Source of the DNA: Bacteroidia bacterium
Lineage (GTDB): Bacteria > Bacteroidota > Bacteroidia > J057
Direction of reading: 5' to 3'
NCBI GenBank assembly: GCA_030731845.1
Contig: JANQTF010000332.1
Location: 1-34,258 of the forward strand
Length of the DNA stretch: 34,258 nucleotides
Numbering within the stretch: position 1 is the stretch's first letter; each line of letters opens with the position of its first letter. The position numbers and the translations under genes were made by a program. The notes under the pieces were generated by a model. The model was not told the origin of the DNA. It worked only from the letters and a program-made list of their open reading frames with translations, and ran no database searches. This document shows, piece by piece, positions 25,855 to 31,333 of the stretch.

Positions 25855-26018
25855 GAAAAACAACGATTTACCCCAAGCCCCCACAGGCCTCCGGCATATC
25901 TGAGTAAATTAATCCTTCAACCCTCTTCCGTTCTTCCCTCAAACGATATTGATTTCATTCGCATGGCATCTCGAGCAAAGAAATTTGTCTCAGATGCCTA
26001 GAATTGCATGGTTGGATT

Positions 26019-26783
26019 ATGAAGAAACAAGATCTCACGGCACTCCCTGCCGCCTGGGAATTTTACTTTTGCTCTATCGAAAAACACCCGGCGTCAATCA
26101 TGGTAGATCTCGCCTGGGAGGAATTTGCGCCCGTAAGGGGACATGCTGAGCTGGTAGAAGTAGAGCTTCTCCTCCTTTCTCCCGATGGTGATGGCCTGTC
26201 GGACACCTCAGAAGCTCCCCGGCTATTTGCTATGGAAGACCAGCTTGCCGCAGGTATGGCAAAAAGCCTGAATGCATGGTATGTTGGCAGGCTCACCGGC
26301 AAGGGCAAGCGGGTCTTTTATTTTTATACTCCTACTTCCATGGATATCAGCCATGCAGTAGATGCCACTCTGGAAGATTTTCCCGAATACAACTGGCTGG
26401 TGAAGCACCAGTATGATCCTGAATGGACACTATATCGGGAGTTGCTCTTGCCTTCAGAAGAAGAGGCTCACCTCATTCGCAATCGCAGGGCTTTTGATGA
26501 GCTCGCCCGCCGTGGCGATACTTTTTCTGCCCGCAGGCCCGTGAATCATCAATTCACCTTTCCCACCCAAAAGCAAGCAGAGTCATTTCTCAAAAAGGCA
26601 GGAATGGGGTCTATCGCCTATCAGACAGAGCCTAAGGATTCGGGAACCACCCTTACCTTTTCTACAACCCATGCCATGATGCGCGCTGAGTTGGATGAAA
26701 TTACCTGGGATTTTGCGCAGCTCGCCAAATCTTGCAAAGGCAGCTACCTCGGCTGGAGAAGCGAAGTGGTTACCTTCGGCTGA
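26019..26783 (+). CDS. DUF695-RraB fusion protein
   Basis: A 254-residue cytosolic protein. The first half (about 8-130) matches DUF695, with ALPAAWEFYFCSIEKHPASI, VEVELLLLSPDGDGL and GRLTGKGKRVFYFYTP. The second half (about 145-250) is an RraB-like domain: DELARRGDTFSARRPVNHQF, FPTQKQAESFLKKAG and the end GSYLGWRSEV. RraB in gamma-proteobacteria binds RNase E and reduces its activity; whether the same happens here is unknown, and this fusion is often seen in standalone proteins. The start is ATG 26019; an in-frame TTG at 26004 falls in a TAGAATTG promoter-like element (25999-26006). Its 3' end overlaps the convergent transporter gene by 14 bases. Confidence 0.8.
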   Translation: MKKQDLTALPAAWEFYFCSIEKHPASIMVDLAWEEFAPVRGHAELVEVELLLLSPDGDGLSDTSEAPRLFAMEDQLAAGMAKSLNAWYVGRLTGKGKRVFYFYTPTSMDISHAVDATLEDFPEYNWLVKHQYDPEWTLYRELLLPSEEEAHLIRNRRAFDELARRGDTFSARRPVNHQFTFPTQKQAESFLKKAGMGSIAYQTEPKDSGTTLTFSTTHAMMRAELDEITWDFAQLAKSCKGSYLGWRSEVVTFG

Positions 26784-28035
26784 CACGGATTTTGTGTGCT
26801 ACCACGGCCAGTAGTCCTGCAATCAGGAGCAAATACCATGGTAGCAGCTCTTCTATGGGCAGAAGGTCAAGTCCGGTGATGCTGGCAAATACACGGGTAA
26901 GCTGTATCAGGCCGATCAGCGTGGTGACACCGAGCACCAAAAGCCCCAGCAAGTTTGCGATGGGAGAATTCTGGTGTGATGCCATCTCTTTGTTCATCAT
27001 CAGCAATAAAAAATAGGTAATCAGAGGAAGGACCAGCCCATTAAGCGCTTGAGCCATGATGATTACCGGCACAGGTTTCAGGCCTGAGAGGCCAAATACC
27101 AGTCCTGCCAACAAGACAATCGCCCAGATGATTTGAAAGCGGGTATTGCTGGAATTAGGAGCAGGAAACAGGCTGCTGAGCGCAAGGGCAGAAGCCCAAG
27201 GCGCGGTGACAGCAGAGGTAAACCCTGCCACAGTCAAACCCAGCCCGACAATCCAGCGAGCGCCCAGCTTATTTTCTACGATATTGGCAAGGGCTTGAAA
27301 GGAAAAATCGCCTTCTACCCCAATCGCCGCTACGAGCACCGCCATGCTGATGATGCCCCCCAGCATCACCGCCACGGTCATGCCAAATCGCATATCAGCG
27401 ATGGATTGGCCTCCACCGATGCTGCCCCCCAGAAAAAGATTGTAGGGAACGATGGTTGTGCCAATGAGCCCCAGAATGACCCAGCCGCCATCGGCAGGAA
27501 AGCTCGGGATCACCGCGCCATGGAGTAAAGCCGTAGGCTCTGGATTTTGAAGCAACGCCACAATCAGGAAGCCCAGGCCCATGAGGAGCACCCCTCCTCC
27601 CAGCACCTTGGCGATGGCATTTGCGTTGCGCTGAAGCAGCACCAGGGCAGCAGCAATCACAAGACAGCAGATCGTAACAGGGCGAAACCAGGGGCCAGTC
27701 TCTGGCAACAGGAGCTCGATCCCAGCGAGGGCTCCGAGCAAATTACCCGCTTCAAAGGCAATGCCGCCCAAACCGATGGCAGCGGCTATGAGGCCCCGCA
27801 CCCAGCGAGATGGATACACCATTCGAATGCGATCTCCCAGCGAAAGCCCCGTGACAAGCCTACTGCGGGCAGACATTTCCTGAAGCAGCAGGCAGGCCAG
27901 GGTAGAAAAAGACAAGGCCCATAGCAACTCATAGCCATAGGAGGCTCCTGCTGTTGCTGCCGTGGTCACTGTGCCCGGACCAATGAAGGCGGCAGCGAGT
28001 ACCGACCAGAATAATACGAGTCCGGCTTGCTTCAT
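26770..28035 (-). CDS. Divergent Nramp-family metal transporter
   Basis: A 421-residue inner-membrane protein with about eleven hydrophobic helices and the Nramp fold pattern. In typical Mn/Fe transporters, TM1 has DPGN and TM6 has a Met-Pro-His metal site. Here TM1 reads FIGPGTVTTAATAG (Gly19-Pro-Gly-Thr22) and TM6 reads TTIVPYNLFLGGS (Val196-Pro-Tyr-Asn199). The Asp, the Asn of TM1 and the Met are thus all absent. Similar losses are known in Nramp-related Mg and Al transporters, so the substrate may not be Mn or Fe. The gene starts 10 bases after the adenylyl cyclase stop and is likely in its operon. Confidence 0.85.
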   Translation of the reverse strand: MKQAGLVLFWSVLAAAFIGPGTVTTAATAGASYGYELLWALSFSTLACLLLQEMSARSRLVTGLSLGDRIRMVYPSRWVRGLIAAAIGLGGIAFEAGNLLGALAGIELLLPETGPWFRPVTICCLVIAAALVLLQRNANAIAKVLGGGVLLMGLGFLIVALLQNPEPTALLHGAVIPSFPADGGWVILGLIGTTIVPYNLFLGGSIGGGQSIADMRFGMTVAVMLGGIISMAVLVAAIGVEGDFSFQALANIVENKLGARWIVGLGLTVAGFTSAVTAPWASALALSSLFPAPNSSNTRFQIIWAIVLLAGLVFGLSGLKPVPVIIMAQALNGLVLPLITYFLLLMMNKEMASHQNSPIANLLGLLVLGVTTLIGLIQLTRVFASITGLDLLPIEELLPWYLLLIAGLLAVVAHKIRVSRR

Positions 28036-28045
28036 CAGGCGAAAA

Positions 28046-29758
28046 TCAGGAGCGCCAGATTGGCGAAGGTGCGGTGGTAGCAGGGGTCATGTTGCGACGA
28101 GGAGAGGTGATCTGCTTCACAAAATACATGGGGATGGAGCCTTTGTTTTTAACCGGCAGAGGCCCCCTTGCGATACAGCTCGCTTTTCCTCTGATCAACT
28201 GATGTGTATCCTCGGATATGTTGACCTCCCAGGCTTCGCCGGCAGCTTCCATCCGGGAGGCAATGTTCACAGCATCGCCCCATACATCGTAGGCAAATTT
28301 CTTGTTGCCGATGACACCCGCCACTACGCTACCGCTATTCACCCCGACCCGAAGCTCCCAGGGCACTTCGCCACGCATCTCTTTTTCTACCTTCCACTTG
28401 TGCATAAAGGCTTGCATCTCTAGTGCTGCGGCCACGGTATCGATCGCATGATCAGAATTTTTGGCCTGGAGGCCCCCTACAGCCATATAGGCATCGCCGA
28501 TGGTTTTGATCTTTTCGAGTCCATATTGATCCACGATATGATCAAAATAGTTGAACACATAGTTGAGTTCTTTGATGAGCTGATCTGGCGTGAGCTTGGA
28601 AGCGATATCGGTGAAGCCTTTAAAATCTGTAAACAAAATGGACACCTGATCATGCTCCCGCGGTTTCACCACATTCTTCGCGATGAGTTCTTTGGCTATA
28701 TCAGTAGGGAGAATGTTGAAGAGGAGTTCTTCCGACTTCTGCTTTTCATGCTCTACAGCTTCCTTGGCTTTCTTTCTGAGGCGTGCCCGATTGTAGAGAA
28801 ATAGGATGATCAAAAAAAGAAAGGCAGTCACCGCAATTCCGGCGAGATACATCGTCTCTTGCTGCGCTTCCTTCATATCAAGGAGCGCATCCTTGTTGGC
28901 GACCTCCAGTAGCTGGGCCTTAATCACGGCAGAGTCTTTTCTCCGCTCAATGTTGAGCAAGTTGGTTGTGCTGATGAGTACCTTATTGGAATCCATTTGT
29001 GAGGAAAGAGAATCTCGCACCCCTTGGATTTGGGACTGCACCTCTTCTACCTCCATCTGAATCTGCTGTTTTTCAAGATAATTTTGGAGAAGCACTACAC
29101 TGGTAGCCACATTTTTTTCCACCGTCCTCCTCAGAGAAGCGTTTCCACTTGTGCGAGCAATTGGCAGGGCTTGGTTGTAATGGGTGATGGCCTTTTGAAA
29201 GTTTTCGAGTTTGATCTGGACTTCCCCCATTCGGTTGTAGGCAAAGGCAGTTTCTTCGGCGTTTTTGCTCCTGATCGCATACCCAACGCCCGATTGATAC
29301 GCTTCGTAGGCCTTGTCGAGTCTTCCCTTTTCCTCCCAGGCATTGCCGATAAGGCGGTAGTCTCGGGCCAGCTCCAGAAGATTATCAGAAGTATTAGACA
29401 GATTTTGATTGCGCCAGGTAGTGGTCTGCTCGAGGTGAGAAATCACCTGATCATACGCTTTCATCTTATAATACAGAAATCCAAGATTGGAAAGAGCCAG
29501 GCCTCTTTCTTCTTTGAGACCAAGACTTGCCGCCATGGTAATAGCCTGCTTGGCATAGGTGATAGCCCCCTCTTGATTGGAGTCAAATACGGCGCGAGAT
29601 CCTGAAATGAGCTTCAGCACCTTTGCGGTACCATTGTCCATTTGGTCAAGATCGGTGCGCAGTCGCTGCACTTCGGTTTGGGCAGAGAGAGGGAGGCTCA
29701 GGCAACAGAGTAGGCTGCCAAAACAAAGCAGAAAAGCTGCGAAAGAAAATCGGGACAT
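28046..29758 (-). CDS. TPR-membrane class III adenylyl cyclase
   Basis: A 570-residue signalling enzyme that should make cAMP from ATP. A signal peptide (ending LSAQ, residue 27) leads to about four TPR-like helical repeats (80-220), a coiled coil (about 225-300), one membrane helix (303-322, LAGIAVTAFLFLIILFLYN) and a cytosolic cyclase domain. The cyclase holds both metal Asp residues (378 in FTDFKGFT and 422 in GDAYMA), the adenine-selecting Lys418 (EKIKTIGD) and Asp491 (YDVWGDAVN), and Asn498/Arg502 (VNIASR). The TPRs are thus probably in the periplasm and sense a protein partner or ligand. Nramp follows 10 bases downstream; a cNMP-binding protein is divergent across 180 bases. Confidence 0.92.
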   Translation of the reverse strand: MSRFSFAAFLLCFGSLLCCLSLPLSAQTEVQRLRTDLDQMDNGTAKVLKLISGSRAVFDSNQEGAITYAKQAITMAASLGLKEERGLALSNLGFLYYKMKAYDQVISHLEQTTTWRNQNLSNTSDNLLELARDYRLIGNAWEEKGRLDKAYEAYQSGVGYAIRSKNAEETAFAYNRMGEVQIKLENFQKAITHYNQALPIARTSGNASLRRTVEKNVATSVVLLQNYLEKQQIQMEVEEVQSQIQGVRDSLSSQMDSNKVLISTTNLLNIERRKDSAVIKAQLLEVANKDALLDMKEAQQETMYLAGIAVTAFLFLIILFLYNRARLRKKAKEAVEHEKQKSEELLFNILPTDIAKELIAKNVVKPREHDQVSILFTDFKGFTDIASKLTPDQLIKELNYVFNYFDHIVDQYGLEKIKTIGDAYMAVGGLQAKNSDHAIDTVAAALEMQAFMHKWKVEKEMRGEVPWELRVGVNSGSVVAGVIGNKKFAYDVWGDAVNIASRMEAAGEAWEVNISEDTHQLIRGKASCIARGPLPVKNKGSIPMYFVKQITSPRRNMTPATTAPSPIWRS

Positions 29759-29783
29759 GTAGTTCGTATCAGGGATTCATGTA

Positions 29784-29801
29784 GTATCCGACTAAGGATA
29801 C
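29784..29801. promoter_or_regulatory. Dyad in the cyclase/cNMP-protein divergent region
   Basis: GTATCC (29784-29789) and GGATAC (29796-29801) form a perfect 6-bp dyad with a 6-base centre. It lies 26 bases upstream of the cyclase start and 138 bases upstream of the cNMP protein start. It may be an operator for one or both genes; a chance dyad of this size is possible. Confidence 0.3.
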
Positions 29802-29938
29802 GTCAAGATACAAATTCAGAAAGTATTCGGAAGCTATCGACCTTGCGGATTACCGAAATGATTTTCTTTTTCTCAAAAGAGACGGCCAGCAATCCCGCCG
29901 AACTCCCTATCTTGTGGCTACCCTTGGGCTAATTGGAT

Positions 29939-31333
29939 ATGGAACTGCGAAAAAATCAACACATCGACGCCTTGGCGGCCTCCCCGCTATTTGCAGACTG
30001 CTCTCGCGAGATTTTGGAAAAAATTGTGTCGCGGGTAAAGTTTCGCCAGTATTTTCCTCAAGATGTGATCGTGTGGCAGGGACAACCCAGCACATCGCTC
30101 TTTCTCATCACAAACGGCATTGTGGCTGTGAAGCAGCGGCATCGCAATGCGGAGCATGTCCTCGCCTACCTCATGTCGGGAAACTCTTTTGGAGAAGTGG
30201 GAATTCTGGAGAATCAGCCTCGCTCGGCCACGGTACAGGCGCTTTCGGAGGTTGATGTGCTCGTGATTCAACGAGAAGATTTTCTGGAAATTCTGGAGAC
30301 CTACTCCAAGGTAGCCATTTCTCTGGCCAAGGTGCTTGGTACCTACCTTCTTAAGACCAACCGTAGGAAAAGCGGAGAAAATGCGCAAAGCCGCGTGATG
30401 CTGATCATTCCTACCGAAAAATCAATGGGGGCAGGCACCTTGGGTACGCTCATGGCCGCAGAAATGGTTCATTTCCGCCAGAGTCCAACCGCGATCCTCG
30501 ACTACCCCGATGCACATCGCATTCTGGGCGGGTTTCAGGTAGATTTGGGGAAGCTATCTTTTCGCCATCCTGATGGCTTCGATCTGCTCCTCCCACAAAT
30601 GGACCGCCACCTGCCTTCCAGCACACGAACCACCATCCTCATGGAGCAGCTCCTGGAAACCTATGACAACCTCGTGGTTATTTTGCGTGGTGATCTCGAT
30701 GAAGGAGCCTCTACCATTCTCGATCACGCAGACCAAATCATCATCGTGGCTCCCCCTACCGAAGAGGGCAAAAAGGAAGTGGCGCATATTCGGCGAAAGC
30801 TAAAGGGAAAAATACGGCCCGAAGAAACCAATGTCATGCTCCTGCACAACAGGCCTCATCCCTCTTTGGCGGATATCCCTGAGGATGATAGCGCCGACCT
30901 GGACCTGCCCTATTTGCCTGATTTCCCCTCCTTTCAGATTCCCCCTCCAGACCTCGTAGAAGTGCCCGAAGCACTCGCGCAGTTGGTCAAGACCTGCGTG
31001 GAGCGCCTCGAGCGCAACCAAAGCATCGGAATCTTCATTCCGACTACCATTGATGTAAACCTCAGCTCCGACACCTCCAAGCAGATGGATGAGGCAATGG
31101 CTTTTATGGCGGAAAAATTTGGAGGTGCTACCTGCAAAATTGTCAATGGCGTATGGCTCAGCGATCGACTCGGCCTCGTGGGCGAGGTCGTGTATGTGGT
31201 TTATTCCTACCTCACCCAATCTGATATGACCCGCCACCTCGACGAAGTCGTAGAATACCTCAAGACCCTGAAACGCGAACTAAAACAAGAGGCCATGGCC
31301 CTCGAAATCAACCGGAAAATGACCATCATCTGA
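29939..31333 (+). CDS. Cyclic-nucleotide-binding protein with MinD-like domain and C-terminal domain of unknown function
   Basis: A 464-residue soluble protein. Residues 10-135 are a cNMP-binding domain with the phosphate-binding cassette FGEVGILENQPRSATV (Glu86 and Arg95 in the ligand-contact positions), so it can probably bind cAMP. Residues 150-310 resemble a MinD/CpaE-type P-loop domain: SRVMLIIPTEKSMGAGTLGT, AILDYPDAHRILGG, DNLVVILRGDLDEGASTILD and HADQIIIVAPPTEEG. The P-loop lacks the usual GK[TS] (Gly166 is in the Lys position), so ATP binding is doubtful. An acidic proline-rich linker (305-345) leads to a C-terminal domain of about 105 residues (NQSIGIFIPTTIDVN, FGGATCKIVNGVWLSDRLG) that I do not recognise. 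No HTH or membrane segment is seen. The start is ATG 29939. Confidence 0.82.
   Translation: MELRKNQHIDALAASPLFADCSREILEKIVSRVKFRQYFPQDVIVWQGQPSTSLFLITNGIVAVKQRHRNAEHVLAYLMSGNSFGEVGILENQPRSATVQALSEVDVLVIQREDFLEILETYSKVAISLAKVLGTYLLKTNRRKSGENAQSRVMLIIPTEKSMGAGTLGTLMAAEMVHFRQSPTAILDYPDAHRILGGFQVDLGKLSFRHPDGFDLLLPQMDRHLPSSTRTTILMEQLLETYDNLVVILRGDLDEGASTILDHADQIIIVAPPTEEGKKEVAHIRRKLKGKIRPEETNVMLLHNRPHPSLADIPEDDSADLDLPYLPDFPSFQIPPPDLVEVPEALAQLVKTCVERLERNQSIGIFIPTTIDVNLSSDTSKQMDEAMAFMAEKFGGATCKIVNGVWLSDRLGLVGEVVYVVYSYLTQSDMTRHLDEVVEYLKTLKRELKQEAMALEINRKMTII

Follow-up and report, generated by a model that had tools for sequence, protein, structure and literature searches.

A divergent gene pair in Bacteroidia encodes a predicted envelope-sensing adenylyl cyclase and a probable cAMP receptor of non-CRP type

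Genes at the locus

We analyzed a stretch of 34,258 nucleotides from a Bacteroidia bacterium (contig JANQTF010000332.1 of assembly GCA_030731845.1; the whole stretch is called the window), in which two divergent genes encode a class III adenylyl cyclase with tetratricopeptide repeats (TPRs) and a transmembrane (TM) helix, and a protein with a cyclic-nucleotide-binding domain (CNBD). A sequence-only reading of the window had described these two open reading frames (ORFs) and proposed that they form a signal/receptor pair for cyclic AMP (cAMP). Both ORFs are present; the gene at 28046-29758 (-) is called the paired cyclase, and the CNBD protein at 29939-31333 (+) is called the receptor. The listed receptor ORF opens with a TTG at 29933, and the likely start is the ATG at 29939, two codons further on. 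The pair has the following features.

28046..29758, minus strand: TPR-transmembrane class III adenylyl cyclase, 570 amino acids (aa) (ORF, Pfam Guanylate_cyc, TPRs, catalytic residues)
29114..29590, minus strand: TPR sensor region of the cyclase, residues ~57-215 (TPR_1/TPR_12/TPR_MalT, similarity to FimS), predicted to be periplasmic from the signal-like N-terminus and the single TM helix
28793..28855, minus strand: single TM helix of the cyclase, residues ~302-322 (hydropathy)
28115..28666, minus strand: class III catalytic domain with D378, K418, D422, D491, N498 and R502 (Pfam, residue check)
29759..29938, no strand: divergent intergenic region of 180 bp between cyclase and receptor (~156-273 bp in relatives)
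29939..31333, plus strand: predicted cyclic nucleoside monophosphate (cNMP) receptor, 464 aa, made up of a CNBD, a pseudo-MinD domain and a DUF3574/S-adenosylmethionine (SAM)-lyase-like domain (ORF, Pfam, AlphaFold2)
29969..30373, plus strand: CNBD of the receptor, residues ~11-145, with the cassette FGEVGILENQPRSATV (Pfam, PDB CNBDs, Foldseek, invariant residues)
30377..30964, plus strand: residues 147-342, a MinD-like alpha/beta domain that lacks the P-loop lysine (AlphaFold2, VpsO match, no lysine at position 165)
30965..31330, plus strand: C-terminal beta-alpha-beta-beta-alpha-beta domain, residues 343-464, DUF3574-type and SAM-lyase-like, with invariant W406, E416, Q450 and E451 (AlphaFold2, profiles, alignments)

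Domains and catalytic residues of the paired cyclase

Residues 365-548 of the cyclase matched Pfam Guanylate_cyc (2.6e-53) and TPRs were matched as well, giving a layout of an N-terminal hydrophobic stretch, TPRs, the single TM helix and the class III domain. All six class III catalytic positions were complete, namely, the metal-binding D378 and D422, K418 and D491 as adenine selectors, and N498 and R502. The residue check thus confirmed the adenine-type Lys418 and Asp491 that the earlier reading had assigned to a TPR-membrane class III cyclase. The six residues were identical in all paired homologues whose sequence extends that far, with K418 present in 8/8 and D491 in 7/7, one shorter sequence ending before the latter position. 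Additionally, residues 15-231 were similar to the sensor region of FimS, a Bacteroidota kinase (2.6e-10), which fits a predicted envelope-sensing adenylyl cyclase. Class III adenylyl cyclases with membrane sensors have the same six catalytic residues, including the adenine selectors, and likewise a single TM helix between sensor and catalytic domain; unlike them, the paired cyclase has a TPR sensor resembling the one in a sensor kinase of Bacteroidota and a specific receptor encoded divergently beside it.

The receptor combines a CNBD with a putative MinD-like fold

Residues 36-122 of the receptor matched Pfam cNMP_binding (3e-21), with no other Pfam match, and the CNBD matched domains of CRP, PKA, PKG and HCN in PDB and by Foldseek, with those of PKA, PKG and CRP at the top. 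The phosphate-binding cassette residues G85, E86, G88, R95, S96 and A97 were invariant in 39/39 distinct homologues, and Pfam detected no helix-turn-helix (HTH) in 25 members; in the receptor model, alpha/beta and ferredoxin-like domains follow the CNBD instead. The complete cNMP cassette without an HTH that had been read from the sequence was therefore confirmed, and the three-domain architecture supports the view that the receptor is not a Crp-type activator. Its CNBD shares the complete cassette with those of CRP/FNR and PKA/PKG, including the R-S-A found in CRP, but in contrast to these proteins it is followed by neither an HTH nor a kinase domain but by the pseudo-MinD and DUF3574-type domains. 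No Pfam or NCBIfam model for the whole receptor architecture was found.

An AlphaFold2 model built from 25 homologues (pLDDT 84, pTM 0.66) had three parts: the CNBD, then a domain of alpha/beta structure, then one with the order beta-alpha-beta-beta-alpha-beta. The best PDB profile match of the middle domain was the BY-kinase VpsO (E = 0.002), and together with the modelled alpha/beta structure this makes the MinD-like domain of the sequence-only reading plausible as a fold. However, a lysine at the P-loop position (165) was found in 0/39 homologues, so that the deviant Walker A motif of MinD/ParA is absent and ATPase activity of the middle domain is unlikely.

The C-terminal domain resembles PII-superfamily SAM lyases

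The C-terminal 122 residues were the better conserved part, with a mean column identity of 68% versus 44% for the middle domain. The 50 top matches of a Foldseek search of the receptor against PDB were CNBDs only; thus, we judged the C-terminal fold by its predicted topology, by matches to phage proteins and by profiles. In the AlphaFold2 secondary structure, residues 361-457 showed the ferredoxin-like beta-alpha-beta-beta-alpha-beta order of SAM and SAM-AMP lyases. The domain was homologous to stand-alone DUF3574-annotated proteins on Priestia plasmids (34-35% identity, ~1e-15) and to phage proteins. A search for viral proteins of similar fold yielded matches 100-130 residues long, including one in Lactobacillus phage Bacchae, which also encodes a similarly sized sequence homologue of the domain; a viral scan with a Bacillus phage homologue as the query gave no matches.

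When a profile of 17 stand-alone-type sequences was searched against all PDB sequences, the top four matches were SAM or SAM-AMP lyases, among them phage Svi3-3 at a nonsignificant E of 0.052, and a second profile returned the same lyases (E 0.08-0.3). In the alignment, receptor E416 fell on Svi3-3 E69, Q450 on Q104, W406 on Y58 and E451 on E105, and all four receptor residues were invariant in 39/39 receptors; E416 and Q450 were also kept in the homologues from plasmids and in the closest two from phages. In SAM and SAM-AMP lyases, the Glu of the T-loop (E69/E71) and the Gln of the B-loop (Q104/Q108) are reported to be structurally conserved between the two enzymes, and substitutions of E69 and Q104 reduce activity (PMC12255297; for E69 also PMC7877911), while Y58 and E105 of Svi3-3 matter to a lesser degree (PMC7877911). 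The receptor domain therefore shares with Svi3-3 and the type III CRISPR SAM-AMP lyase both the order of secondary structure elements and the aligned T-loop and B-loop residues; it differs from them in its attachment to a CNBD as part of a cellular protein, in a sequence similarity that is not significant and in a lyase activity that is hypothetical. These sequence comparisons are fair evidence for membership of the PII superfamily and, for lyase chemistry, a lead rather than proof. The sequence-only reading had also named the C-terminal domain as an output; the domain exists and can now be described as DUF3574-type and ferredoxin-like with SAM-lyase catalytic positions, and its role as the output would follow from this resemblance.

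As a side observation, the stand-alone DUF3574-type proteins of plasmids (L203, L205, L206) and phages (L200, L207, L208, L209) conserve a GG and the B-loop Gln, and most of them also conserve the T-loop Glu, making them a possible SAM-lyase-like family on mobile elements.

Cyclase and receptor are paired within the family

Full-length receptors (47-52% identity) were found in 7 other genomes of the family to which the window belongs. An orthologous cyclase (36-41% identical) was adjacent and divergent in six of these seven, or in 7/8 genomes counting the window, while the flanks beyond the pair were mostly unrelated between family genomes. The seven paired cyclases grouped as one clade (99/90) when 68 cyclase domains were placed in a maximum-likelihood tree, and the remaining cyclases of these genomes fell outside it. 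Of the family genomes, the five that lack a receptor contained nothing closely matching the paired cyclase, except for a cyclase of another clade in G006. The pairing is thus real, and the prospect that the two genes would rarely be adjacent in other genomes, which the earlier reading had given as grounds for abandoning the idea, did not come true within the family.

Beyond the family the receptor co-occurs with related cyclases

One scan of ~85,000 genomes for receptor homologues returned 24 full-length or nearly full-length receptors, 5 of which were the family members again. The other 19 came mainly from Cytophagales, plus one Anaerolineae metagenome-assembled genome (MAG), and class III cyclases were present in all 19 of these genomes, six of them (Cytophagales) having exactly one. 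We then counted cyclases in a sample of 241 Cytophagales genomes, in which the best five candidates per genome were scored and a match to the paired-cyclase profile at 1e-60 was the criterion. A profile-matching cyclase was present in 25/25 genomes with a receptor versus 42/216 without one (Fisher p 3e-16, uncorrected for shared descent); across the phylum, a strong class III cyclase match was found in 117 of 395 genomes. Co-occurrence, which had been suggested as a check, therefore held outside the family as well, in that a related cyclase accompanied the receptor in every sampled receptor genome. The flanks of the Bernardetiaceae receptors contained nothing cNMP-linked, and the plasmid records searched contained no full receptor. 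In the Anaerolineae MAG (L081:3573-9377), a receptor with a longer N-terminus lies ~20 bp after an nSTAND1-WD40 protein.

A metallo-beta-lactamase protein is linked to both partners

Outside the window's family, where none was found, a protein with a metallo-beta-lactamase (MBL) domain and CNBDs was linked to both cyclase and receptor genes.

L082:5792-7987, L083, L085, L087:5811-9314, L163-L199: MBL-CNBD proteins beside TPR cyclases or the receptor

At L082, L083 and L085, three loci of Cyclobacteriaceae type, a run of same-strand genes ends with the receptor, which starts 10-15 bp after an MBL-CNBD protein of ~731 aa, and in L087 the two are fused into a single protein of 1167 aa. In 11 Cytophagales genomes, one or two TPR cyclases are followed in the same orientation by the MBL-CNBD protein or by a shorter version that lacks CNBDs. 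Each of the three combinations (cyclase-receptor, cyclase-MBL and MBL-receptor) is therefore linked by gene order in some genome, the last of them by fusion as well. Within the 241-genome sample, the MBL protein occurred in 34 genomes, of which 34 had the cyclase and 22 the receptor. The HxHxDH motif was kept in the MBL homologues of all 37 loci examined. The Dictyostelium class IIb phosphodiesterases GbpA/GbpB consist of an MBL domain followed by CNBDs (PMC11988041). The partner has the same order, an MBL domain with HxHxDH and then CNBDs, so that a candidate cNMP phosphodiesterase is the natural guess by analogy; in contrast to GbpA/GbpB, it is bacterial and linked to cyclase or receptor genes, and its activity is putative.

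Two further arrangements were seen at these loci. In L082 (3340-5652), L083 and L085, the first gene of the MBL-CNBD-receptor run encodes a predicted multihaem cytochrome c of ~770 aa that contains HEAT and TPR repeats, and two tandem TPR cyclases lie upstream of the MBL-CNBD gene in G452, G455, G456, G487, G502, G517 and G543.

Proposed circuit and alternative explanations

We favor, with reasonable though not strong confidence, a dedicated cAMP signalling pair whose output is a PII/SAM-lyase-like domain instead of transcription. The cAMP circuit itself is likely, while the lyase chemistry is put forward as a hypothesis. The architecture, the conserved pairing, the co-occurrence and the link to the phosphodiesterase-like protein were computed directly. 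In the proposed mechanism, the TPR region of the cyclase would sense a periplasmic or envelope cue, and the enzyme would, judging from its topology and catalytic residues, make cAMP in the cytoplasm. cAMP would then bind the receptor CNBD, as its intact cassette suggests, and binding would be relayed via the MinD-like scaffold, which has lost the P-loop lysine, to the C-terminal ferredoxin-like domain, where the PII/SAM-lyase-like domain would change its activity, ligand binding or partner binding. Since this DUF3574-type domain is most like PII-superfamily SAM/SAM-AMP lyases, its activity or ligand binding, and not transcription, is most likely the output. The identity of the ligand, the direction of regulation and the chemistry are what we infer from sequence.

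Several observations weigh against a dedicated pair. Outside the family, an adjacent cyclase was found at 0/19 receptor loci. G004 has a receptor but no cyclase of the paired clade: the ORF beside its receptor was considered as a cut-off cyclase and ruled out as unrelated, and its nearest cyclase belongs to a different clade in the same tree, although the assembly is fragmented and loss is unproven. The co-occurrence counts ignore shared descent. The genome of the window has ten cyclase-domain loci and nine CNBD loci, that is, nine and eight beyond the pair, and cross-talk is therefore possible. These numbers, and the receptors without an adjacent cyclase in Cytophagales and G004, would also be expected if the receptor were a general cNMP sensor for the pool made by all cyclases, the adjacency being an old family arrangement with shared regulation and no private circuit. 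We regard this as improbable, since the pair was retained in seven of eight genomes despite turnover of the flanks and only the paired cyclase clade occupies that position. Mere coincidence, to which the lack of adjacency outside the family could point, is the least probable explanation; it is contradicted by the same divergent order in six other genomes with mostly unrelated neighbors and by the co-occurrence and fusion evidence. A Pycsar-like defense pair, in which the SAM-lyase-like domain would be an effector acting on infected cells, is very improbable, too. Pycsar likewise places a nucleotide cyclase beside a CNBD protein, PADLOC matched the cyclase to PycC (1e-13) and the receptor CNBD to PycTIR (4e-17), and relatives of the C-terminal domain occur on phages and plasmids. 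However, the PADLOC matches were limited to the common cyclase and CNBD domains, the CNBD protein has no TIR or TM effector, and the pair is retained family-wide rather than scattered; moreover, the cyclase is a TPR-transmembrane protein with the adenine selectors K418/D491, whereas the selectors described for PycC are of the pyrimidine type (PMC11224242). We therefore rejected an identity with Pycsar.

The nature of the output is the more evenly balanced question. The similarity to SAM lyases was below significance (E 0.05-0.3 across both profiles), and profile comparison of the C-terminal domain with T3 SAM lyase gave no match, both of which count against the lyase part of the favored reading. 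PII proteins are mostly ligand sensors (PMC7877911), and the DUF3574-type family is broad, with no functional paper found in the literature. There is an even chance that the C-terminal domain has no catalytic role and serves as a PII-like sensor or for oligomerization, and that the receptor acts by protein-protein contact, an explanation that overlaps the favored one and disputes the chemistry alone. Against it stands the invariance, in every receptor, of the counterparts of the SAM-lyase residues E69 and Q104 and, less so, of E105 and Y58. The most specific version, that the receptor is a cAMP-gated lyase acting on SAM, on SAM-AMP or on some related adenosyl compound, and as such a chromosomal bacterial enzyme, is improbable; if true, an envelope-sensing cyclase would control the S-adenosylmethionine pool or a SAM-derived signal.

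In bacteria, the usual readers of cAMP are transcription factors of the CRP type. Both the cyclase and the CNBD belong to known kinds, and the architecture and output of the receptor look undescribed: we found no paper on this architecture and, in the literature on cAMP in Bacteroidetes, Cytophaga and Bernardetia, no comparable cAMP pathway. The receptors thus form a conserved family in Bacteroidota, whose members likely bind cAMP and have a probable non-CRP output, and which is tied to a cyclase and a phosphodiesterase-like protein by gene order, co-occurrence and fusion. A catalytic C-terminal domain would connect cAMP to SAM metabolism; catalytic or not, the arrangement points to a possible role of the DUF3574-type domain, whose function we did not find described in the literature.

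Neighboring genes

The sequence-only reading had proposed the transporter gene downstream of the cyclase as an effector or cargo of the circuit.

26770..28035, minus strand: Nramp-like transporter, a loose neighbor lying 10 bp past the 3' end of the cyclase gene (Pfam Nramp 3.3e-50)

This proposal turned out to be weak. The window, L057 and L058 are the only loci (3/6) at which an Nramp gene lies 3' of the cyclase, and, despite the Pfam match, the canonical metal motifs DPGN (TM1) and MPH (TM6) are absent from the protein sequence in the window. We considered the transporter as a circuit component and found this unsupported, given the loose association and the lacking motifs. Further along the window, 26004-26783 encodes a DUF695 domain joined to an RraB-like domain, and a homologue stands beside the Nramp gene in L057.

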